Source: Medicago truncatula (Eukaryota > Streptophyta > Magnoliopsida > Fabales > Fabaceae). Taken from it: 64,000 nucleotides of DNA. Under the pieces are notes generated by a model that had not been told where the DNA came from, did not search any database, and saw only the letters and a program-made list of their open reading frames with translations. This document shows, piece by piece, positions 1,251 through 64,000 of this stretch. The stretch lies in NCBI RefSeq assembly GCF_003473485.1, contig NC_053042.1:12916501-12980500 (forward strand), read 5' to 3'. The stretch's first letter is position 1; each line of letters begins with the position of its first letter. The position numbers were made by a program, and so were the translations under genes.

Positions 1251-3920
1251 CTACCGATTATTTAAACTCGGACAATTTCTCCTAATATGACCGGTATGCC
1301 GACACAACCCACACCGTCTCGGTGTCGGAGTCCTCTCCACCACCTCCTCGTCCATTTCAGTCCGTATGCGGGTACTATTGGGTCGACCTTTCTTTAGTCT
1401 TCGCATGTTTGGATTATGGCAAAGCACGGGACCGTCGTATGGAAGCCAATAACTCTTGTCGTGGACTACTTTGAAGGCTGTGTTGTAGATGGAGTAAACA
1501 CTCTCGTTTTTGAACACAGGTGGAATAAGGGTTGTGTAGTCATGGCGAAATGAAGAACACGCGGCTATGACATGAGAACATGGCAAATGTAAAGCTTGAA
1601 ATTTCCCACAATCACACCACCCCGCTCGTAGGTCCACCTTGAAAGTTCCCATTGGCCTTCCCTCCCTGTAGTTGATGGTCTCACGGACTGAGAAGGTATA
1701 CCTTTCTCGGTCAAACTGTTCGACATGATGGGTGTTGGACTTAACAATGTCATCCTGAATCGCATTTTGGCAATATTCACTGAACAAATCTCCGGAACCT
1801 ACCCTTGCAAACGCTTTTTGAGCCCTATCAGCAAAGAGACATGCCAGCCTATAGTAGGTTGATTGTCCACCCAATCTAATGCACGCTGATTTGCCTCCTG
1901 GATTACACCACGATAGTAATTGAACAAGGGTACGTTTAGGGCATATCCTGCATGTTAAGAAAAAACAATTAGTTAGATAGTGAACCTATTTAATAATAAG
2001 ACGATATAAAAAAAACTGTAACATGATATTCTTACCCATATTATTGACAACATCCTTAAGATCTCCATCCTTGATTGTCCTCATGAAATTCTGCTTAATG
2101 TGTCGAATGCAGTACACATGAGCTGAACCAGTTGCTTGCCAACCATTCCTTGGGTCATTGAATGCGCTTTTAATTGATTCATGTCTGTCGGAGACCATGC
2201 AGACAGATATTCCCTTTGTGACGTGCCTTCTTAGATTTTTCAAAAAAAAACTCCAGCCCTCATTTGTCTCACCTTCGACAAGCGCAAAGGCGATTGGAAT
2301 CATTTTGTTGTTTCCATCTTGTACTACCGCAAGCAACAATGTTCCTTTGTACTTGCCATACAACCACGTCCCGTCGACATGGACAACTGGTTTGCAATAC
2401 TTAAACCCATTGATGCATGGATAGAAGGCCCAAAATAGACGATGAAATTGTGTCTCTCCATTCTCGCCAATCTGCGTTTTTAAATCGAAGACGGTCCCTG
2501 GCATCGTCTCCTTCATCACATTCAACCACTGCGGAAGATCATTATATGATTCCTCCCATTTCCCGTAAATAGATTCGATGGCAGCGTTCTTTGCTAACCA
2601 CGCCTTTCGATACGTGGTTGTGTAGTTAAACTTTTCTTTAATTTGCGCAATGATCAATTTTGGCGTTACCGAGGCATCCGCATGCACAAGTGTTTTGATG
2701 CTTTGGCTTATAAGCTTGTAGTTGAGCTTGCGATGATCCTGCGACATTAAAGTCGATGTGCAATTGTGTGGACCCATCATGGTCCCAATCTTCCATTTGC
2801 CAGTCTTTTTTCTAAAGGAAGCTCTCAACTTAAATTGACAAGTCTCGAGTGTACATTGAATGACATATCTTGTTGGATCTGAGTGTATAACATCGTAATC
2901 CAGCGATTGTCGAATGTGGAAAGACTTGATTGCATGCAAACAATCTTCTTTGTTGTGAAATGTCATTCCTTCCTGAATAGCCCCATCGACAGGAACATTC
3001 GTATTCCAGTGATCGTCGGTAGTCAAAGCATCATATGCAACAACGTCAACGTTACGCATATGCAACGGGGGACAGTAAGCGGCTCTAATCGGCACTGCCT
3101 GCAGTGGTGGTTGTGGTTGTGTGCCAGCCATAATGTTCCTCCAAATATCTTCTTCTTCATTTATGTTTTCATGTTCATCTTCTTCATTTGCATCATGCTC
3201 AAGTGCCTCGTCTTCTTCACTTTCACTTTCACTACTAGTTTCTTCTTCTTGATCTTGAATGGTGTCTGGGATGTCTTCAAACTGACGAGTGAAAAGATCT
3301 TCTAGGCGGGTTTGTGTTTGTGGTTGCGTTTGCGTTTGCGGTTGTGGTTGTGAAGATGATGGTTCAAATTCATATTGTGTTTGTGAAAACGGTTGGTTGT
3401 ACGGTAATTGTTGTGATGAAGAAGGGGGGTGAAACTCATATTGTGTTTGTGAGAACGGCTGGGTGTATGATAATTATTGTGATGAAGATGGGTGTTCAAA
3501 CTCATATTGTGTTTGTGAAAACAATTGAGGTGTTTGACGCGGTTGTGGTGTTTGATGATGTTGTGAAATCTCCCGGTTTTCAATAATAACCGATAACTCA
3601 ATGGAACCAACCGCATTAAAATATTTGTGAGTTGCAAACATATCTGCAATGTCATCGTTGTCGTATATTTCGATGTCATTATACTGGATATGACCTTGAA
3701 CGAAGGCTTGTGGTGCTCGATATATAATTTTAGATATCACCTGAGATTCAGTGAGATGTAGCTTCTGCTCTATTCTTTTTTTCAAATGATCAATGGTGCT
3801 TTTGATGCTAACATAAAAACATTTTCTTTGCTCACTTTCAAAAAATGAACCAAATTGATTTCTTGAAACTTTTCCATTATAGTGGATAATGAAAAATACA
3901 TTCTCTGGTGTGGGTGCCAT
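1251..3920 (-). pseudogene. MURA-type MULE transposase, inactivated
   Basis: The frame starts with ATG at 3920-3918 and runs in exon 1 to a GT donor after 2036; exon 2 begins at 1947. The N-terminal part (codons 1-148) looks like the PB1-like head of plant MULE transposases. Next comes a Gln/Ser-rich repeat, then the core from about codon 264 (MAGTQP) with catalytic-type motifs VDGTWLYGKY (first Asp) and SDRHESIKSA (second Asp) and a Cys...His pair (YCIRHIKQNF). The C-terminus has a SWIM zinc finger (CDCGKF, then LPCSHV) and a CCHC knuckle (CGLCRHTGHIRRNC). Two lesions: an in-frame TAA at 3476-3474, where sister repeat units have CAA; and a frame-breaking internal deletion near 1880, where LDWVDNQ runs straight into the region normally reading STYYRLA. 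The deletion removes the segment expected to hold the third catalytic acidic residue. Not autonomous. Confidence 0.85.
3330..3530 (-). repeat. Three-unit coding repeat in the transposase N-terminal region
   Basis: Three units of roughly 57-69 bp each encode SQTQYEF followed by an acidic/Pro stretch and SSSQ. The leftmost-coding unit (near 3475-3520) carries the TAA stop; the other two read CAA at the equivalent place. A Gln/Thr/Pro dipeptide run (QPQTQTQ) follows towards 3300. Confidence 0.65.
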
Positions 3921-4563
3921 TGTTGTTGTGTGCGTTGAAAATATTTGTATGTTTATAACTATTAACAATAAGAGTCCAAAATATATAGGCAATTGCATGC
4001 AAAAAAAATTGAACACGCGTGCCACGTGTCGCGTTGTAAGTGGCCAGTCCATTCCCGCCAGTTGAAATGGCGGGACCAAGTCTTTTCCTGCAGCTTTCCA
4101 GGCGCGTGGATGGGTTTCCTGCAGCTTTGCAGGCGCGTCGGCTGACAGTTGCGCAGAAACCAGCACGCGCTACAGTGCACTTGCAGGCGCGTCAGCAGCT
4201 TTGACTGACGGAAGGGACACGTGTTGGATTTTTGTTGGCTCGACTGGTCATTCCCGCCGTTTGGAATGGCGGTAATGGAAGCAATGCAAGGCAGCTTCTG
4301 CAACGTACACTGGCTTCTGTTACAAATTCAAGATTCTTGATACAATTGATGCATGCTTGTTGAAAAGACTATACCATACCATACTGAATAATTGAGCTAA
4401 CCTGTTGTGAACATTAATTCATAAATCTTCAATTCTTCTTCTATAAAATCAGTGTTGTGGTTGAACACTACACACCAGTTTTCAATTGCTCTCAATCTAA
4501 CATTTATTCTTTCCTTGTGAGAAATAGCATACAGTTAAGCTTTTCTTTCCTTCTAATTTAAAG
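3921..4563. promoter_or_regulatory. Divergent intergenic region of the MULE with two TIR-like hairpins
   Basis: The transposase start (3920, minus) and the mobile-domain gene start (4564, plus) face away from each other across 643 bp. The region holds two copies of the hairpin found in the element's ends, at 4052-4075 and 4251-4273 (CCCGCC, short loop with TTGAAAT or TTGGAAT, GGCGGG or GGCGG). It also holds three copies of GCAGGCGCGT or CCAGGCGCGT (about 4090-4195) in an otherwise unusually GC-rich block. A shared bidirectional promoter is inferred from layout; no TATA assignment is firm, though CTATAAAATC at about 4441 would suit the plus-strand gene. Confidence 0.5.
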
Positions 4564-6861
4564 ATGGGAGACATCCTTTATTTAGGCAACAAACATAGAT
4601 CTCGTCATATTTCAGAAACTATTAATGTAAGTTTATTATTTTATTTTAATTGAAACTTAATTATATTAAAATTATTTATGTTTAATTATTTATGTATATC
4701 AAATCTATTAAGATTATGTATGTATAATTAGTAAGACTCAATTATTAACAATATTAATATTTTGTAGAACGAAGACCAACATTACCTTCGAGTTCGATGT
4801 CATCGCAAGATTTCCCCGGCGCCCCCAACCATTGAAGATAGCTTAAGGTCAGCCGGATTGTGGGACTTTGCTAATTTAAACAAATATAACGTTGATAATC
4901 GTTTGATAGTCGCGTTATGTGAAAGATGGAGGCTGGAGACCCACACATTTCTTTTTCCATCGGGCGAGTGTACAATAACGTTGGAAGACGTTCATATGCT
5001 CCTTGGTTTAAAGGTTAACGGTGAACCGATTACCGGTAAAACAGAAGTTGGGTGGGAGATTGTTGAACCTATATTAGGAAGTAAGCCATCAAGCTCTCGC
5101 CATGACGGGAAGAGTATTAGATTATCATGGCTTCAAGAATATATCAACGGTGTTGGTATGACAGGTCCCCCCACGACTCTACATATGTTTAAAGCCTATG
5201 TCTTATACTTGATAGGCTCTCGAATAATGCCTAATAATAGTGGTAATCTTGTACATTTGTCGTTTTTGCAATTGTTGGATAAATCACCTGAGGAGGTTGG
5301 ACAGTATAGTTGGGGTTCAGCTTGTTTGGCCACGCTATATAGATCCTTGTGTGACGGTGCAATATATGGCAATATCGAAATGCCTGGGTGCACAATTCTC
5401 TTGCAAGCATGGGCGTGGTCAAGAATGTCATGCTTAGCTCCCGTGCCAAGGATACCACCACAAGCTCATGCACAACTTCCGTTGGCAAATATGTAAGTAA
5501 AATAAATGTTATTTTTTTTATTAATTTTTACATAAATTTATCCAGACTTTACTAATTATAACATTTTCAAAATTAACTAGATGGCTAGAACATGGTAATA
5601 AATTCGTGGAAAATCCTCGGCATAATCTCGTATGTACGCGTTTAAAAATCGACACCATGACATATGATCAGGTATTACACTTTCTTTTAGTCATTGCTTT
5701 TTAGTCAACAATTGAAGACTAATATTCATTCTTTTTAAACAGTTCTCCTGGAGGCCTTATGTCAACTTCAATTACAGCAACGAAGAAGAAAGCCAGATAT
5801 GGTCTGCAAACACATATCTCATCTGTTTTCAGATTGTCGAGAGACATCAGACAGACAGAGTAAGGCTTCAATTTGGCTTACCGCAACACCCACCTTCCTT
5901 ACCAGAAAATTTGAAAGATTTCCACAAAATTAATTTGTCAAAAGATAGAATTAAAGGCTCGTGGGGAGATAAGCATCATCGTCAAGTCCAAAACTGGAAC
6001 CAACGTCATCAATTAGCACTTCACGGCGTTCGGTATAACCATGAGGTTTATCCAAATCGTCAATATTTTGCATGGTATTGGGAATTTTTCGGAGATTATC
6101 TGTGGCTTTCTAGAGAAGTATTATTGTCAAACCCAAGGCAAGCATGTGCATCAATTTTACCAGGATTGCCGCGTGACTATCCTGCAGTCCCACAAACTTA
6201 TACGGTGCCAGATGAAAATATGTGGTCAAATACACCTCCACCCTATAACCAATTCATGACACCTCCACCCACTAACTTTGACCAAACCTTTAACCCATCC
6301 ACCAACTACAACTACAACCAAACTTACCAATCACCGCCACAACCCACAAACCAAATCTTACATAACACCCCAATCCCATATCCAAGCTATTCTCAACAAA
6401 GTCATCATGGAGAAAGCTCTCGAACATCAAACTATTCATTTGATGACTACAATCCAACTCAATACACCACACAAACCAGTTATCCAGACCAATCACAATA
6501 CTCCTCGTTCAACCTACCAACCCCTCCACACTTTGTCAACTATCCCCAAACAAGCTATGCACCTCAATGGCCAAATTCACAAACAAATACCATAGAAAAT
6601 CTGGCAGCACGGTTTAATGACGATGACTTCGTTAATGAAATCTGGACCAACTCAGCTTCACAAGTGCAAAATGAAGTCGCTATGGAAACTAACGATGATG
6701 CTGAAATTCTTGACGAGGATGTGGAAGAGGAAGATGAAGAGGAAGAGGAAGAGGAAGAGGAAGAGCAACACCAACGACCCGTACGGAATAAAAAAGATAA
6801 ATTATGTGCTACGGGTGGTCATAGTTTACATTGGCGTAATTGGTTTCCACGGAGAAAGTAG
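4564..6861 (+). CDS. Plant mobile domain (MAIN-like) protein carried by the MULE
   Basis: Four exons in consistent phase: 4564-4626, 4768-5492, 5581-5671, 5743-6861; 665 codons plus stop, no internal stops. The plant mobile domain spans roughly residues 45-390. Recognisable family wording includes GLWDFANLN near its start, then LIVALCERWR, HTFLFPSGECTITLEDVHML and LLGLKVNGEPITG, and later LLQAWAWSRM and W-rich text in exon 4. From about residue 440 the chain is Pro/Gln/Asn/Tyr-rich and low complexity, followed by a run of Glu (about 617-634), a basic patch (NKKDKL) and a C-terminal WRNWFPRRK. In Arabidopsis the related MAIN/MAIL1 proteins work in silencing and phosphatase-containing complexes; MULE-borne copies have no established role. 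The open frame next to a dead transposase is notable. Confidence 0.85.
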
Positions 6862-20231: not shown

Positions 20232-22407
20232 ATGTCATTTGAACATGTTCCGGATTTTCATAGGATAATCTTGCAAGATAAGAAACTTGTAAGCATATTA
20301 GAAAGAATTATTTTGCATATTTACATTATGTTTCATTTATTCTGTAAACCCTATTATTTATGTATCATTGTTTTAAAAATGTAAAAATGTTAATGTATGA
20401 TTTCTGAATTTCTTTGTTGCAGAGGGTTCCTAAGATATATGTGGAGAAATATTGGAAAGGAATATCAAACCCTATATTCCTTAAATTTCCAAATGGTGTT
20501 CAACAAGAAATATTTTGGGCGGAGAGTAATGGTGACATTTGGTTTCAAAAAAATTGGGAAAGTTTTGCAAAGTTTCTGAAATATGGATATCTCTTAACTT
20601 TCAAATTCATTGGTGGATCATATTTTAAGGTTAAGATATTTGGTGCCAATACTTTAGAAATAAATTATGCAAATATCAAATCCGTTGATGAAGGTGCTGA
20701 AGACACAGAAGAAGGTATAGAAAGTGATGAATCAAGTGATGATGAAGACAATGAAGAAAGTGATGAAGTCAGTGATGAGAGTTCAGATGAGGTTGAAATA
20801 CCAAAGCAAGCTCAAAGGACTAGAAATGGCAAGAGAAAATTCTCAGGTGAGTTTAGGCTTGTCTGTTACTCTATCTTATTTTTAAATAAAAAACCTTAGT
20901 TTTTATAGAAATAATTGCTTTTAAGAGTTATTCAATGGTTTGTACTTTGTTGTAATTTTTGTCTGAAAGCTTGTAAATCTAAGGAAAAAAAGTGTCTTGA
21001 AGTGCATCTAAATTGAGAAGCATTGTTAGATACTTTTTCTATAAAAATATGTGATTTATTATATATCATAAAAAAAAAAAATTTGGTTTTCTTAAAATCG
21101 TTTAAAAATAATCTCTAAATCAAATGTATAATAAATAGTTAATGCCTAAACAAAATATATTATCTATCTTTAAACTTTGCAGGTAGTAACAAAGTATCCA
21201 TGGTGAAGAAGGCTAAAAAATACCCAATGGCACAATCTGAAGCTGTTAATGAGAGAGCCAATAATGAGAATCCTTTTTTTGAAGTTACAATGTCCCATAC
21301 TTACACCAATGGCTATTTGTTGGTAAGTTTGCTATACAAAGTATCTAATAATTTTAGCTTTAATTAATATCTCTAATAAACCATTATTTGAAACAGTGGT
21401 TACCACGTGAGTTTTCAAGAGAACACTTGGAAAATTTTAATGGAACTGCAACAATAAGGGTTGGTAAAGAAAGGAGTGTGGAAGTGAGTTTGAGGTATTA
21501 TGATACCAAAGAAAAATCTTGTTTGGGTGGTGGTTGGAAAATATTCAGGGAAAAGTATAATTTGCAAGTTGACGATGTTTGTAAATTTGAGATGATTCAA
21601 CGGAGACCGTTTTTATTCACTGTTACTATTACTCGTGCTGGAAAGGAACCAATCCCAAAGAAATTACTAGGTTTTAGTTCTTTCTTTCTCTTTTATTTGC
21701 TCTTTTGTATGTTATCATTTTTTTATTTGATATTTGATTAAAATCTGTTTTTCTTTATTTCTTTTGTTCATGACAAGGTTATAAGAAAGGGGTCTCTTTT
21801 TTTAATAGTGTTAGTAGCCTAACTTATCCAGGATTCAGTTTCTTTTTTTAGTTTAAAACCTAACTATATATTATATGTTTAAGTTCATACTTGAAATTTT
21901 TTAGCTCAAAAATATATTCAAATATCTCTAAATTTTTTGGGTATTATAAAAATTAGATGATATCATTTTGTGTTTATGCCTGTATTGTACAGAAGGTCCT
22001 GATGTGATGAAGCCATATACATTCAAGGTTTTGGTGAAGAACACAGCTCCGGTAGGATTAATTACATAAAATATATACATATATAGATAGAGATGTTAGA
22101 ACTACAAAATAAATAATGATATTTTTGTTTGTATTTGCAGAGTGTACCAAAGGAGTTTATGAAAAGAGGATGTCATGAAAATATTGTGGAGTTGAAAATG
22201 GGGAGAAAGTCATGGTTCGTAAAAGTGAACTATTACGAGAGTATTTGTGGCTGTAGGTTCAGTAAAGGTTGGAGAAAGTTCATGAAAGAATGCAAAGTGG
22301 AGATTGGAGATACTTGTCTCCTTAAGTTGATTGATGAACGAAAATTTGTGTTTGATGTTTCAATTGCAGGAAAGAATCCATTAGCTGTTTGTTCTCCAAG
22401 GTACTAA
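20232..22407 (+). CDS. REM (VRN1-like) B3-domain protein with ruined exon 5
   Basis: Six usable exons in phase: 20232-20288, 20423-20846, 21183-21322, 21397-21670, 21993-22051, 22141-22407; 406 residues. B3-1 about 9-105, acidic linker (EESDEVSDESSDEVE-like) about 113-145, B3-2 208-294, B3-3 319-406 ending in GKNPLAVCSPRY. Exon 3 is 21 bp longer than in the two upstream genes (an in-frame insertion around ANNEN). An exon 5 remnant begins normally after 21777 (GYKKGVS) but is truncated by a deletion that joins it to intron sequence, removing its donor; skipping it keeps the frame. 5' flank and 3' flank are paralogous to the first gene, showing that whole units were duplicated in tandem. Confidence 0.87.
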
Positions 22408-54288: not shown

Positions 54289-57200
54289 ATGTCATTTAAA
54301 AATATCCCCGATTTTCATAGGATAATATTGCATGATAAGAAGCTTGTAAGCATATACATTAATTATTAGTACACTCAATATTTACAAAATGTTGCATTTA
54401 TGTGTGTTTGCTTTTGAAAATATTAATATCTTTCTGAAATTTTTGTTGCAGAGGATTCCCAAGAAGTATGTGGAGAAATTTTGGAAAAGAATATCAAACC
54501 CAATATTCCTTCAATTTCCAAACGGTGTTCAACAAAAAATATTTTGGGTGGAGAGTAATGGTGATATTTGGTTTCAAAAAAATTGGGAAAATTTTGCAAA
54601 GTTTCTGAAATATGGATATCTCTTAACTTTTAAATACATAGGTGGATCATATTTCAAGGTTAAGATATTTGGTGCCAATACTTTGGAAATAAACTATTCC
54701 AATATAAAATCTGTTGAAGAAGTTGTTGAAGCTAAAGAAGGAGTTGAAGTGAGTGGTGATAGTGATAAGAGTTTAGGTGAAGGTGAAATACCCCTTCAAG
54801 CTCAAAGGACAATAAAAAATGGCAAGAGAAAAAATAGTGTGGATTTGTATACTACCCAGCCAATATTCTCAGGTGAGTTCTTTTTATCATGATATATAAA
54901 TAAATCTAGAGTTTTTTCTAGTAAAATTACTTTTTCTAATATGTAGCAAATGAACTCTAAAGTAGGAAATTTTTTATGATGAGTATATTACAGATGGGGA
55001 CAGAGGAGACATGACTAAGAAGGCTAAAAATTGCTCATCAATTGAAGTTCTTAATGAGAGTGACAATAATGAGAATCCCTTTTTTAATGTTACATTGCCA
55101 CAATCTTATGCCCATGGCTGCAGGATGGTAAGTCTACTAGATAAAAATGTCTCCAAATTTTGGCATTAGTTTTTTTTTGTTTTTTTGAGAGAGATAAAAT
55201 ACCACTAATCTTTTTAATAAATAAAATGTGGTTCATGATGAATTGAAACAGGCGATACCAAGTAATTTTTCAAGAGCACACTTGAACAAATTTAAAGGGA
55301 TTGCAAATTTAAGAGTTGGTGAGGACAAGACTATGGAAGTGAATGTGAACTTTGAAGATAATAATAGAAGATCTGTTTTGACTACTGGTTGGAAATCATT
55401 TAACCAAAAATATAACTTAGAAGTTGGTGATAAATGTAAATTTGTGATGACTCAAAGAGAACCACTATTATTTACTGTTACTATTACTCCATCAAGGGAG
55501 CAATCAATTTCAAAGAAATTAAAATCTCAAGGTTTTTCCTTTTTTGTTATTAAAAATGCTTTTATTTGATATTTGAATTCACTATATTTTTTTTTTGTAC
55601 TTTTTTTTTTTTACAACTTCTTATTCTTTGATCCCAATTACCAGGTTATAAAGAAGGGACCTCTTCTTGTGGTGATAATCCAAAGAGAAAAGTATTTAAA
55701 GGAACTTCTAGGAGCTGCCAAACAAATCATCTTCTTGGAAGTATTCTTTTAACTTATCTAAACTTTTATTTTTTTAATTTGGTCCCTTAATTTACCAATA
55801 ATTGATTAAATATTAGTTGTTTATTGTATAGTTAAACTAAAATATTGAATTTTTATATATTACTATTTTAATAAATCAAAAATTTAATTATTTTAATGAA
55901 TTTTTCTTCATTTGATTACTATTTGAATAAACTGAAAATCACAACTAAAAAAGCAAAAATTAGTGAGGGAAATTTTGAGAGGGAAAACGTGAAATCTCTC
56001 CCTAATTCAGTCACTAAACTTTGCGACCAAGGAATTTGTGAGAAATTTTATTTTTTCCGTCACCAATTTCTCTCTCTAATTTTGCTTTTTTTAGTAGTGA
56101 ATCTTGAAACTTTTTTGTTTAAAATAAACCAAAAGGGTGATAGTGAAGGTGCTAGCCAACCCCAAAATAAATTTAAAATGATAAAAACAAAAGGAGGGGA
56201 AAGGTGTTTTGAATAACTTTTCCTATTAGTCATTTTTTAAATATGATATGCGGTTTTAAAAAACGGTTCGTTACCGAGAAAAAGGCTGCGATAAAAAGGT
56301 ATAGGTAGTGGACGTTACCGTTTTTTGACCGTTTTTATGGAGTGAACAAAAATCACAACGAAACATCGTTACAGCTGCGACGAAATACCGTTACAGCCAC
56401 AAAAAATTGTCGTTTATGACAATAGACATAGAATCTGGATATTTTTTGCAGTTGAGATCGATGAAAATCATATTTTTAATGAGTAGTGATATTTGAACAA
56501 CTCTTTTGATACAACTTTTGGGACAACCTTGTTGTGTTCTCTTTTTATTTGTCAAAATCAATAAAGAGAGAATAAGAAGATAATGTGAGTATGAGAGAGA
56601 AGGTTGTACGAAAGTTGTACAAAAATGGTTGTACAAATATCATTTCTCATTTTTAATACATATTTGATCATAAATTACATAATTTATCTCCTTATCTAGT
56701 TTAGAACTTCAAATCTTTCTCTAGTTTAAGTTATTTAAGTTACTATCATTATTTAAGAGTTGTGCAATGTTGTGACTAATTCACACCGCGACAACTGCAA
56801 TCCTTATCCCAACACATGTAACGGCCAAAATCAGGAAATCCTATACGCGACCGCTACCGTTATTTAAAACTTGATGATATGATTTTTTTTTTTTTTTTAT
56901 CATGATATATAAAAAAATGTAGGCTTCATTTTTTATTTTATTTTTTATCATGATATATAAATAATGTAGACTTGTTTCTAGTAAAATTACTTTTTCTAAT
57001 ACGTTGCAAATGAACTCTAAAGTAGGAAATTTTTAATGATGAGTATATTTACTTTGCAGGTAAGGACAGTGGAGGCATGATTAAGAAAGCTAAAAATTGC
57101 TCACCGGTTGAAGTTGTTAATGAGAGTGACAATAATGAGAATCCCTTTTTTTATGTTACATTGTCAAAATCTTACGTCCATGGCAGCAATATGTTGGTAA

Positions 57201-58612
57201 GTTTACCATCTAAAAATGTCTACTAATTTTGGCTTTAATTAACACTAATATATTGTTTCCAAAAATAAAATCCACTAATCTCTAATAATTTGTTGTACAT
57301 GATGAATTGAAACAGGTGATACCATGTAATTTTTCAAGAGCACACTTGAACAAATTTAAAGGGATTGCAAATTTAAGAGTTGGTGAGGACAAGACTATGG
57401 AAGTGAATGTGACGTTTGAAGAAGCCAAAAGAAGATCTCTTGTGACTACTGGTTGGAAATCATTTAACCAAAAATATAACTTACAGGTTGGTGATGAATG
57501 TAAATTTGTGATGACTCAAAGAGAACCACTTTCATTCACCGTTACTATTACTCCATCAAGGGAGCAATCAAGCTCAAAGAAATTAAAATCTCAAGGTTTT
57601 TCGTTTTTTGTTATTAAAAATTCTTTTATTTCATATTTAAATTCACTATTTTTTGTCTTTTTTTTCCAACTTCTTATTCTTTGATCCCAATTATAGGTTA
57701 TAAAGAAGGGACCTCTTCTTGTGGTGATAATTCAAAGAGAAAAGAATTTAAAGGAACTTCTAGGAGCTGCCCAACAAATCATCTTGAAAGTATTCTTCCA
57801 ACTTATCTTAACTTTTATTTTCTAATTTGATCCCTGAATAATTGATTAAGTCTTTGAACTTAAATGTTTTTAGCTGTTTAGTGTATATTTAAACTTAAAT
57901 ATTAAATTATCTATGATTATGCCCTAATGAATTTGAAATAATGTTAAGTTTTTTAAATGTGTGTTTACAAGTTAATTCAAAGTTCTAGGGTTCGATTAAG
58001 TTTTTTAACTCAGTCATTGCCTATTTCAAATTATTGATAAGTTTAAGGACATCATTTTAATTTTTTAAGTTCTAAGGCATATTTAAAAATCTCTAAATAA
58101 TTTATAGACCTTTTTTTAAATCAGTTTATATATTAACATTTTGTGTTTCTCCAGATTCAGAAGGTGATAATGTGAAGAAACCTAAAACATTCAAGATTGA
58201 TGTGTATTCCAAATACTCGGTACGATTAATTACATAAAATATGGTTACTATGTTAATATATAGATTCTGTCAAAAAAAAATGTTAATATATAGATAGAGA
58301 TGTTAGAACTACATATATGCATGATATTTTTGTTTGTATTTGCAGAATGTTCCAAAGGAGTTTATGAAAAGAGGAAGTCATGAAAACTTTCTGGAGTTGA
58401 AAATGGGGGGACGATCATGGTCTGTAAAAGTGAATTATTATGATAGTATTCATGGTTATAGATTCTCTGGAGGTTGGAGACAATTCATAAAAGAATGCAA
58501 AGTGGAGATTGGAGATACTCTTCTCTTTAAGTTGATTGATGAGAGCAAGTTTGTGTTTGATGTTTCAATTGTAGGAAAAAATCCCTTAGCTGCTTGTTCT
58601 ATTGTTCTTTAA
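54289..58612 (+). CDS. REM B3-domain protein with duplicated exons 3-5: four B3 domains predicted
   Basis: Ten exons in phase: 54289-54345, 54452-54872, 54994-55127, 55252-55531, 55645-55740, 57060-57196, 57316-57595, 57697-57789, 58155-58219, 58346-58612; 609 residues. B3-1 about 9-105; B3-2 205-297 (IPSNFSRAHL, TGWKSFNQKY, GDKCKFVM); linker; B3-2' 376-468, nearly the same sequence; B3-3 522-609 (VPKEFMKRG, GWRQFIKE, GDTLLFKLIDE). Exons 3-4-5 plus flanking intron were duplicated in tandem, and because the block is phase 1-1 the reading frame survives. The intron between the copies (55741-57059) later received two nested elements. Whether both copies are used in one transcript is inferred. 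Sister genes have three B3s, so this is a real change of domain number. Confidence 0.83.
54883..55855 (+). repeat. Intragenic tandem duplication, copy A (exons 3-5)
   Basis: Begins with TATCATGATATATAAATAA and runs past the exon 5 donor. Matched by 56937-57920. Exon 4 is 280 nt in both copies, with few differences. The exon 3 acceptor region differs (ATATTACAG against ATTTACTTTGCAG). Confidence 0.85.
56250..56873. mobile_element. hAT-like element in the 55741-57059 intron
   Basis: Ends GCGGTTTTAAAAAACGG and CCGTTATTTAAAACTTG are inverted repeats with mismatches; flanked by ATGATAT (56243-56249 and 56874-56880). Interior has CGTTACCG/CCGTTACAG words. Contains a second MITE. Confidence 0.5.
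56481..56648. mobile_element. Small MULE-type MITE, copy 2, nested
   Basis: 168 bp, same family as 38718-38885, flanked by a perfect 9-bp ATTTTTAAT (56472-56480 and 56649-56657). It sits inside the element at 56250-56873. Confidence 0.82.
56937..57920 (+). repeat. Intragenic tandem duplication, copy B (exons 3'-5')
   Basis: Counterpart of 54883-55855, holding CTAGTAAAATTACTTTTTC and AAATGAACTCTAAAGTAGG before exon 3'. It keeps the pyrimidine-rich TTTGCAG acceptor typical of the other genes. Confidence 0.85.
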
Positions 58613-59630: not shown

Positions 59631-59801
59631 TTCCCTCCGTTCTAAAATATAAATAAATTTGATTTTTTAGGTTCATTCAATTAATGATGTATGTGGTTCA
59701 TATTATGGACCACATACATCATTAATTGAATATGGACCACATACATCATTAATTGAATGAACCTAAAAAGTCAAATTTGCTTATATTAAATACGGAGGGA
59801 G
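59631..59801. mobile_element. Stowaway-like MITE, near-perfect hairpin
   Basis: 171 bp, ends TTCCCTCCGTTCTAAAATA and TACGGAGGGAG, TA on each side. The arms pair almost throughout (GGTTCATTCAATTAATGATG and its complement), with a 27-bp internal duplication (TATGGACCACATACATCATT) in the loop side. Confidence 0.8.
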
Positions 59802-60576: not shown

Positions 60577-63500
60577 ATGTCATTTCAATATATCCCCGAT
60601 TTTCATAGGATAATATTGCAAGATAAGAAGCTTGTAAGCATATTAGAAATAATTAAATTGCATATTTAGAGTATGTTGCATTTATTTATATATGTTTATA
60701 TTTAAAAATGTTAATAACTTTATGAATTTCTTTGTTGCAGAGGGTTCCAAAGAAATATGTGGAGAAATATTGGAAAGGAATATCAAACCCAATATTCCTT
60801 AAATTACCAAATGGTGTTCAACAAAAAATATTTTGGGTGGAGAATAATGGTGATATTTGGTTTCAAAAAAATTGGGATAATTTTGCAAAGTCTCTCAAAT
60901 ATGGAAATCTTTTAACTTTTAAATATATTGGTGGATCATATTTCAAGGTTAAGATATTTGGTGTCAATGCTTTAGAAATAGATTATTCCAATATAAAATC
61001 TGTTGATGAAGTTGTTGAAGCTACAAAAGAAGATAAAGAGATTGTTGATTTGACTGATGAGAGTGAAATACCAAAGGAAGCTCAAATGATGACAAATGGG
61101 AAGAGAAAAATGAGTATAGATATTGACACTCTTAAGCAAAAATTCCCAGGTGAGAACTTCATTTGATTTCCTTTTTAATATCAAATAATTTTTAGTAAAA
61201 TCACTTCTTTTTTTTAGTATTTTTAGTACTTAACAAATGAACTCAAAAGCAGGTAGGAACATTGAAGACACGGTTAAGAAAGTTAAAAAAAGCTCAAGAA
61301 TTGAAGTTGTTAATGAGACAACTAATAATGTGAATCCCTTTTTTGAAGTTTTAATGACCCAAACTTATGCCCATGGTCATATCTTGGTAAGTAACTATCT
61401 AAAAATGTCTACTAATTTGGCTTTAATTAATATCACGAATCTCTAATAAAATATGGTTCATGAATTGAAACAGGTGATACCATGCAACTTTTCAAGATCA
61501 TACTTGAACAAATTTGAAGGGATTGCAAGCTTAAGAGTTGGAGAGGACACAGCTATGAAAGTGGATATAGTGTTTAACAATAAAAGATCTTCTAAATCTA
61601 TGAGTACTGGTTGGAAGTTATTTAACCAAAAATATAACTTACAAGTTGGTGATAAATGTAAATTTGTGATGACTCAAAGAGAACCACTTTTATTCACTAT
61701 TACTATTACTAAAGCCATCAAGGGACCAAACCCTAAGAAGTTGCAAGGTTTTTCTTTCTTGTTTGCTTTTTTATTTTTGTCATTAAAAATGTTTATATAT
61801 TGATATTTTTAATTAACATCTAAATTCCTATTTTCTTTGATCCACGACAAGGTTATAAAGAAGGGATATCTTCTGTTGATCGTGATTTTCTAAAGAGAAA
61901 AGACACCGAAGAAACTTGTAGGACCCTTCCAAAAGTGCACGCTCTTCAGGGTATTTTTCTAACTTCTTTAAAGTTTCTTTGATCCTTAATTTCTTTTAAT
62001 TAACATCTAAATTCCTTAATTTCTTTGATCCATGACAAGGTTATAAAGAAGGGATCTCTTCTGGTGATCGAGATATTCTAAAGAGGAATGGCACTGGAGA
62101 AACTTATAGGACTCTTCCAAAAGTGCATGCTCTTCAAGGTATTTTTCTAACTTCTTTAAAGTTTCTTTGATTCTTTATTTCTTTAGGTAGTTAACATCTA
62201 AATTCCTTAATTTCTTTGATCCATGACAATGTTATAAAGAAGAGAACTTTTGTTGTGATCGTGATATTCTAAAGAAGAAAGACACAGGACAAACTTATAG
62301 GACCCTTCCAAAAGTGCATGCTCTTCAGGGTATTTTTCTAACTTCTTTAAAGTTTCTTTGATCCTTAAATTCTTTATTTAGTTAACATATAAGTTTCTTA
62401 ATTTCTTTGATGCATGACAAGGTTATAAAGAATGGACCTCTTCTTGTGATAAGAATATTCTGCAGAGGAAAGACATTGGAGAAACATCTAGCTGGAGCTG
62501 TCCGAAAGAGCATGCTTCCCATGGTATAATCTTCTAACTTTAAAGATTTTAGATTTTTGTATTGTGAAGTATTTTTAAATATTTGTAATTTTTTTAAATA
62601 GTTCTCTGAATTAAAAGTGTTATTAATCTGGCCTCTAAACTTATCAATAACTTATACATTTTTTAACTGAGATTTAAAATGTATCCTTAAATTCCCTAAA
62701 AAAAAAGTATCCTTAAACATTAATTTTAAATAGCCATAAATTTGAAAGAAATTTTAGTTATGCTGTTAAACTATTAGATAATTTGTAATTTGTGATTGAG
62801 CCTTACAAAATATTTAGGAATTCCAGTGTTCATTATTATTTATGGAACATATATACAAATTATTGGACATGATTAGAAATTTATTTAGCATAGAAATTTA
62901 TTTAAAAAAATTGTATGTGATTTAAAACTAAATTCCTTAATTTCTTTGAAAATGTTTTATTATTTTGGTTTGTGTATCGCAAAATATTTAATAGTTCAAG
63001 GGTTCAGTTATTATTTTGCTTTTTTGTTTTTGTCATTAAACATCTTTTTGAATTGTTATTTGGCTTACATCTTCCTTAATTTCTTTGATCCATGTCAAGG
63101 TTATAAAGAAAGGATCTCTTCTTATGAAAATAATAATCTAAAGAGGAAATACATTGGAGAATCTTGTAGGAGCCGTCCAAAACTGCATGATCTACAGAGT
63201 ACTTTTCTTCTAACTTTTTTAAAGTTTTTAGATTTTACTATTGTGAAGGATTATTAGATATTTGTATTATTTTTAAATAGTTCTCTGAATTAAAGTTGAT
63301 CCTCTAAACTTATATATTAGAAAAATCCATTTTTATATTGGGAAAGAGAAGGGTTTTTTTTTTTTATTAATTCAAGTGACATTAATTAACATTTCAACTT
63401 TTAAATAATTTGTGAATGGGCCTTACAAAATATTTAATAATTCAAGGATTCAGTAAATTAATTTTTCGTTGGAACCTATATAAAAACTATTGATATGTTT

Positions 63501-64000
63501 AAGGGCGTGATTAGAAATTTATTTATCTTATAAACCTATTTAAAAATCTCTATTTTTTTTTTTGGGACCCTACAAAAATAGGATATTATAAAATCTAATT
63601 TTTTTTGGATCCTTTAAAAATCTCTAAATCTTTAAATATATTTTTTTCGTAGTATATTATAAAATTACATAACCATATGGTTGGTTTTCCATAAATTTTC
63701 GTAGTCTTGGCTTGAGACATAAAATTTAATTCTCTCAAGTGTCAATTTTTGTAGCCTATTTTGTCTTCTTAAAAAAAACATTAATATATATAATGTCATT
63801 TTGTGTGTAGAATCAAAGGGTCAAAACGTGATGAAACACAATACATTCAAGGTTTTGGTGAATTCCAAACGCCCGGTAGGGTTAATTACAAAAAATATGA
63901 CTACTATGTTGATATAAAGATATAAATGTCAGAACTAAATAATATGTAAATGATATTTTTTGTTTTTATTTGCAGCATGCACCAAAGAGATTTATGGGAA
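60577..64000 (+). CDS. REM B3-domain protein with amplified linker exon 5 (runs off the window)
   Basis: Exons in phase: 60577-60633, 60741-61149, 61253-61386, 61474-61747, 61852-61950, 62040-62138, 62422-62523, 63100-63198, 63811-63875, 63976 onward (cut by the window edge at 64000). A further exon 5-like copy at 62231-62329 has an intact frame but lost its acceptor (ACAAT for ACAAG). B3-1 about 9-105, B3-2 201-291, then four consecutive ~33-residue linker repeats beginning GYKE and containing a K(R/K) cluster and a late PK or PKV; the B3-3 start (APKRFMG) is just visible. Sister genes have none or one copy of this linker exon. It could instead be spliced with only a subset; all combinations stay in frame because each copy is phase 1-1. 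Confidence 0.82.
61852..63198 (+). repeat. Five tandem copies of linker exon 5 with flanking intron
   Basis: Copies start at 61852, 62040, 62231, 62422 and 63100; the first four recur at 188-191 bp. Each has the acceptor context ATGACAAGG or CATGTCAAGG (broken in the third), TTATAAAGAA, then AAGAGGAAA or a relative, CCAAAAGTGCATGCTCTTCA, and a GTATTT/GTATAA/GTACTT donor. Lengths are 99, 99, 99, 102 and 99 nt, all multiples of three. Confidence 0.88.

Follow-up and report, generated by a model that had tools for sequence, protein, structure and literature searches.

Tandem copies of a linker exon between B3 domain regions of a clustered legume gene

Introduction

When a short exon is present several times over inside one gene, do the copies extend a working protein, or have they accumulated in a gene that is already losing one of its domains? 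The question is raised by a B3 gene at the downstream end of the 64-kb stretch of DNA analysed here (C1:12916501-12980500, hereafter the window), which belongs to a searched genome of 430 Mb and 42 contigs. A sequence-only reading had described an array of exon copies between the second and third B3 domains (B3-2 and B3-3) of this gene and had proposed that a recent expansion changed the spacing of the two domains. Our analysis confirms the array and supports the interpretation in part.

From its multi-B3 architecture and tandem clustering, we take the gene to be of the REM type. The passages available from two REM family papers (PMC2688026, PMC10949715) describe tandem duplication, proteins that carry several B3 domains, and lineage-specific expansion. 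In the searched genome, the Pfam B3 profile gave at least 151 matches (150 of 583 candidates scored), many of them clustered, including those at C1:12.37-12.39 Mb and C1:12.86-12.98 Mb, and linker homologues were allotted to genes by their position among tblastn B3 matches.

Results

The focal gene model is open throughout exons 1-4 (Table 1), and every modelled intron has GT-AG ends apart from that preceding the third linker copy (L3), which ends in AT. Its product contains the Pfam B3 domain (PF02362, E 3e-17). The B3 domains have an intron near their start and thus a two-exon form, with B3-1 split after ...DKKL and B3-3 distributed over a 65-nt exon and the last exon; two-exon B3 domains are known in several REM classes, according to the available part of PMC2688026. 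One single-sequence search of the PDB with B3-1 returned nothing at E 0.01. Upstream of the gene, at 59646-59787, lies an inverted repeat with 59-nt arms that are 93% complementary, and its flanking ends resemble those of a Stowaway-like MITE.

Table 1. Modelled features of the focal gene and of related genes (window coordinates, unless a contig position on C1 or a locus is named)
Feature	Position	Strand	Basis and remarks
Focal exon 1	60577..60633	+	start codon, MSFQYIPDFHRIILQDKKL; model from sequence and sister-gene homology
Focal exon 2, B3-1 domain	60741..61149	+	AG/GT, open frame, Pfam PF02362
Focal exon 3, inter-domain exon	61253..61386	+	gene model
Focal exon 4, B3-2 domain, ends in phase 1	61474..61747	+	gene model, Pfam
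Linker exon L1, 99 nt, phase 1-1, GYKEGISSVDRDFLKRKDTEETCRTLPKVHALQ	61852..61950	+	repeat search, frame, splice sites
Linker exon L2, 99 nt, phase 1-1	62040..62138	+	repeat search, frame, splice sites
Linker exon L3, 99 nt, acceptor reads AT instead of AG	62231..62329	+	frame, splice-site reading
Linker exon L4, 102 nt, one codon longer, older copy	62422..62523	+	frame, splice sites, divergence
Linker exon L5, 99 nt, donor GTACTT, older copy	63100..63198	+	repeat search, frame, splice sites
Short exon before B3-3, 65 nt	63811..63875	+	gene model
Last exon (B3-3), start	63976..64000	+	runs on past the window (locus L009)
Neighbour gene A, open 609-aa model, four B3 domains	54289..58612	+	gene model, Pfam E 5.4e-45
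Gene A linker exons (two)	55645-55740 and 57697-57789	+	gene model
Linker homologues above 20 bits	C1:12870027, 12887764, 12899429, 12906519, 12926167, 12959668, 12984166		profile search
Linker homologue above 20 bits	L011 (C1:20.344 Mb)		profile search
L020 B3 gene, 600 kb from focal gene	3376-5754 of L020 (C1:12373376-12375754)		Pfam, gene model
L020 extra linker exons, phase 1-1	4143-4244, 4507-4599, 4862-4954 of L020		102, 93 and 93 nt

Between B3-2 and B3-3, at 61852-63198, five copies of the linker exon (99, 99, 99, 102 and 99 nt) follow one another head to tail. The repeat search and the reading frames agree with the earlier description in this respect: all five copies have symmetric phase 1-1 and lengths divisible by three, and because of this phase the frame is preserved however many copies are present. 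Adjacent exons are homologous and are accompanied by homologous flanking intron sequence, separated by spacers of 89-92 nt within the array. The start-to-start distances are 188, 191, 191 and 678, so that units of about 190 bp, as previously proposed, account for the first three steps and not for the step from L4 to L5; Tandem Repeats Finder reported a period of 191 bp with 3.6 copies at 61807-62485. Splice dinucleotides AG and GT flank four of the five copies, the number already counted as usable, with L3 as the exception; use of an AG that ends 9 nt into L3 would leave a 90-nt exon in frame. The label 'basic' suits the encoded linker only weakly, with 5-8 K+R against 4-6 D+E per unit. Neither four linkers joined together nor the last 48 residues of the protein gave a Pfam match.

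A transposon origin of the units was considered and rejected. A genome search with unit 2, which skips very common words, gave 10 matches, five of them the array units themselves (E 1e-93 to 4e-30). Nine matches lie in the cluster, and the remaining one, at C1:20.34 Mb, is accompanied by B3 exon matches as well, so that the unit does not look dispersed.

Homologues of the linker occur in related genes. A profile built from ten linkers, seven of them copies from the window and therefore biased towards these, was run in six frames over 207 kb, which took in the 160-kb cluster, two single loci and 30 kb from a second cluster. Beyond the focal gene, 11 homologues were counted, nine present once per gene and two in gene A; above 20 bits there are 10 (eight present once per gene, two in gene A). 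The count includes a weak homologue at window position 21777 (9.4 bits), because unit 2 also matches there with 81% identity over 62 bases, and leaves out two further hits that are unplaced (9.8 and 10.3 bits). Neither the second cluster (30 kb) nor locus L023 had a profile match above 10 bits. The view that the linker is single-copy in sister genes thus holds for nine of the 11 homologues and breaks down in gene A, where a module of exon 3, B3-2 and linker is duplicated in frame (54881-55851 and 56942-57908; 85.6% identity over 991 bp, offset 2061).

The copies fall into two age groups. Among L1-L3, the flanks are 87-89% identical (10/89, 10/89 and 12/90 differences), and the exons differ at 13, 15 and 13 of 99 positions. 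L4 differs from the other four units by 22-28% in the exon and 33-39% in the flank (22/99 and 34/87, respectively, against L5), and unit 4 has diverged no less than unit 5; the earlier grouping of units 1-4 as nearly alike therefore has to be narrowed to units 1-3. In a tree of 13 units, L1-L3 were grouped with support 100/99, whereas L4, L5 and L1-L3 together were set apart from the other genes only at 63/79. The sequence around L4 matches that around L5 at 81% over 226 bp and then at 70% over 161 bp, and the intron between L4 and L5 closes with a copy, 77% identical, of 90 bp from the intron between exon 4 and L1, the two blocks representing a duplication of about 678 bp that includes intron sequence.

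These patterns suggest an order of events. An older duplication of the L4/L5 block was likely followed by the multiplication of the shorter units. In the first step, a block of about 678 bp with the exon and a long intron would have been duplicated; in the second, units of about 190 bp (L1-L3) would have arisen, where a stretch of about 35 nt from the downstream intron runs directly into the last 46-55 nt or so of the upstream intron. Tandem duplication or unequal exchange, the latter already supposed, is the most evident way for an exon to be amplified in frame inside one gene. Plant substitution rates usually range from 6.5e-9 to 1.5e-8 per site and year, and with a flank divergence of K 0.12-0.15 the flanks of L1-L3 would be about 4-11 My old, although gene conversion would make them appear younger. 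The expansion that had been called recent is recent in a relative sense, since units 1-3 do form a set of similar copies and their divergence corresponds to several million years.

We then considered whether the copies carry a trace of selection. In a simple neutral simulation, which started from the majority consensus on a star tree, made half of the changes transitions and used L4 shortened by one codon, all five copies stayed open with P 0.14 and the three recent copies with P 0.51, so that five open frames are within chance. The exons of L1-L3 are as divergent as their flanks or more so (13, 15 and 13% against 11, 11 and 13%), and the recent copies show no sign of coding constraint relative to introns. 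Exons less divergent than flanks are found when L4 is compared with the other units and in the two gene A linkers (4/91 exon against 15/88 flank differences). The dN/dS values of the linker are 0.22 for L1/L2, 0.88 for L1/L3 and 0.62 for L2/L3; over all comparisons they lie between 0.22 and 3.1, with some 20 synonymous sites available and a single undefined value among the 21 pairs, and are so noisy that weak constraint on the units may be compatible with them. For B3-1, dN/dS of the focal gene against three sisters is 0.35-0.48 over the first 315 nt, compared with 0.29-0.36 among the sisters, and 0.59 for the whole exon against gene A. B3-2 is loose in all compared genes (0.52-1.07).

A further feature lies downstream of the array. 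In L009, a single G present in sister gene A is missing from the last exon, so that focal B3-3 reads ...VELKMGDNHGL and then meets the stop codon TAA at window-equivalent 64054; the tblastn match with the sister B3-3 is divided over two frames at the same point. The missing G is located in a G run, at about window-equivalent 64030-64045, and G runs are places where assemblies can err. Past the frameshift, B3-3 is open in its own frame for 56 codons, and it ends earlier than the sister domain, with a stop right after VSIVG. The dN/dS of B3-3 is 0.94 between the focal gene and gene A and 0.59 between the focal gene and gene G10, against 0.31 between A and G10; with gene G12 it is 0.35 for the focal gene and 0.30 for A, indicating about equal constraint. 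Relaxed constraint on focal B3-3 is therefore suggested by the values for A and G10 and not by those for G12. In a separate observation, the inverted neighbouring B3 gene (L009, about 3481-5880, minus strand) has a B3-3 exon that matches the sister in two pieces, leaving sister residues 28-38 uncovered.

Owing to the frameshift, the array spaces no pair of domains in this assembly, and Pfam recognizes two B3 stretches in the 472-residue model; the proposed change in spacing between B3-2 and B3-3 does not hold here. The model has 372 residues with one linker copy, 472 with four and 502 with five (L3 used through its inner AG); if spliced in, the copies would probably lengthen a tail rather than bridge two domains.

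A second gene offers a cleaner comparison. The L020 gene has three extra linker exons between B3-1 and B3-2 (Table 1), nearly identical and encoding the peptide AQEASTENDEEAERKRDTKKTSRKKRKSDLS. Its four introns have 4-7 differences at 258-262 sites, with an additional 4-nt gap in the last one (97-98% identity), and whether or not the extra exons are included, the model has an open frame between B3-1 and the stop. The B3 matches reach 49.8 and 52.6 bits at profile positions 15-100 and 17-99, above the Pfam cut-off, and are stop-free; one simple pattern found no first exon. Each extra exon resembles the following exon at its start and the preceding exon at its end, so the duplicated unit seems to span the intron. 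The unit also matches many places in the genome at 68-90%, roughly over its intron part, which suggests that the intron carries a dispersed repeat. Judged by its introns, the L020 array appears young and an independent case in the same family.

Arrays of at least three units between the B3 domains of one gene were found twice in 262 kb scanned (237 kb plus 25 kb), regions selected for holding B3 genes; Tandem Repeats Finder overlooks arrays less than about 70% alike. A third array, at L029 5504-7425 (C7:24063504-24065425; 243 bp, 7.9 copies, 97% match), was rejected as a linker case, as it lies between two B3 genes of a C7 cluster and not inside one. A 137-bp repeat of 1.8 copies was seen at window-equivalent 81137. 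In another cluster (C1:6.41-6.44 Mb), direct duplications at L024 4466-6465 and L026 6261-7916, with offsets of 1371 and 1216 bp and 83-85% identity, coincide with paired B3 matches and are probably duplications of B3 modules.

Discussion

We consider it probable that a linker exon typical of the family was multiplied in two steps by tandem duplication inside a REM-type B3 gene, that the product has two B3 domains and a predicted tail of repeats, and that the extra copies are drifting. The two-domain product is favoured by the frameshift in B3-3 of this assembly, and the lack of function that we infer for the extra copies is in line with the equal pace of exons and introns in L1-L3. Because the explanations share the duplication history, their probabilities overlap.

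If the gene were a dying pseudogene, the same duplications would have taken place in exons that are never spliced in or translated. The frameshifted B3-3 and the lost L3 acceptor fit such a state, as do nine other tblastn matches with stops in the 160-kb cluster, some of which may be intron read-through. The open exons 1-4, the otherwise intact GT-AG introns and a constraint on B3-1 about as strong as in the sisters argue against it, and a stop in the last exon is not expected to trigger mRNA decay. We regard a pseudogene as unlikely, albeit a serious contender.

It is less plausible still that the repeats form a functional linker, whereby a longer connection between B3-2 and B3-3 would alter the pair of sites bound and the frameshift would be either a mistake in the assembly or a variant confined to one accession. 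Five open, in-frame copies, the 56 open codons of B3-3 beyond the frameshift and the L020 gene, with its extra exons between two stop-free B3 domains, are what such a function would lead one to expect. However, the open frames are within chance in the simple neutral simulation, L1-L3 exons diverge at the pace of introns, copy 3 has lost its acceptor, and B3-3 has, in addition, an earlier end than the sister domain. Misassembly, to which tandem repeats in general are prone, is a very improbable source of the copies, since the ten unit pairs differ by 13-28% in exons and 11-39% in flanks, so that no copy re-uses the same reads, and the recent part of the array spans only about 680 bp, far below long-read length.

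Returning to the two-step duplication with a repeat tail, the focal case carries a caution: exon amplification can persist although the next domain of the gene is already broken. Were the copies translated, a plant transcription-factor family would alter domain spacing by gain and loss of symmetric exons. The L020 gene is the better test of this, with its young array, its open modelled frame and its stop-free flanking B3 matches. Tentatively, we propose that inter-B3 segments in legume REM clusters are recurrent sites of exon amplification, at which linker exons and modules of B3 plus linker multiplied independently (focal gene, gene A and L020 gene), so that the number and spacing of DNA-binding domains would evolve by intragenic exon gain within a fast birth-and-death cluster.

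Tandem exon duplication is a known kind of change, in plants too, and the hint of something new lies in the recurrence of linker-exon gain. The array is unreported in the literature searched (titles and the starts of abstracts, with few subscription journals covered), and the available passages of PMC10885650 do not touch the locus. In the parts available, the REM family papers cover the duplication of whole genes or of B3 domains (PMC2688026, PMC10949715), and the word 'linker' is absent from the passages of PMC2688026; the present case concerns a linker exon.

In mutually exclusive exon arrays, one copy per transcript is enforced by short introns, splice-site incompatibility or RNA pairing. 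The focal spacers measure 89-92 nt and are GT-AG except before L3. This length is not too short for consecutive splicing, considering the minimum size of plant introns. A related system is the origin of alternatively spliced exons by tandem exon duplication (Kondrashov and Koonin 2001, as cited in the available part of PMC2674458), in that the focal exon is duplicated beside itself and its symmetric phase makes skipping or inclusion neutral for the frame. The nearest plant parallel in the passages available is CENP-C of grasses, where a rapidly evolving region of a chromatin protein has repeatedly gained tandem copies of small exons: an exon pair is triplicated in rice and present in two copies in wheat and barley, and a sorghum pseudogene retains the duplicated exons (PMC549713). 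Both cases show tandem duplication of small exons, but CENP-C involves exon pairs in a single-copy centromere gene with some positive selection, whereas here a single exon has been multiplied in one gene of a tandemly arranged transcription-factor cluster.
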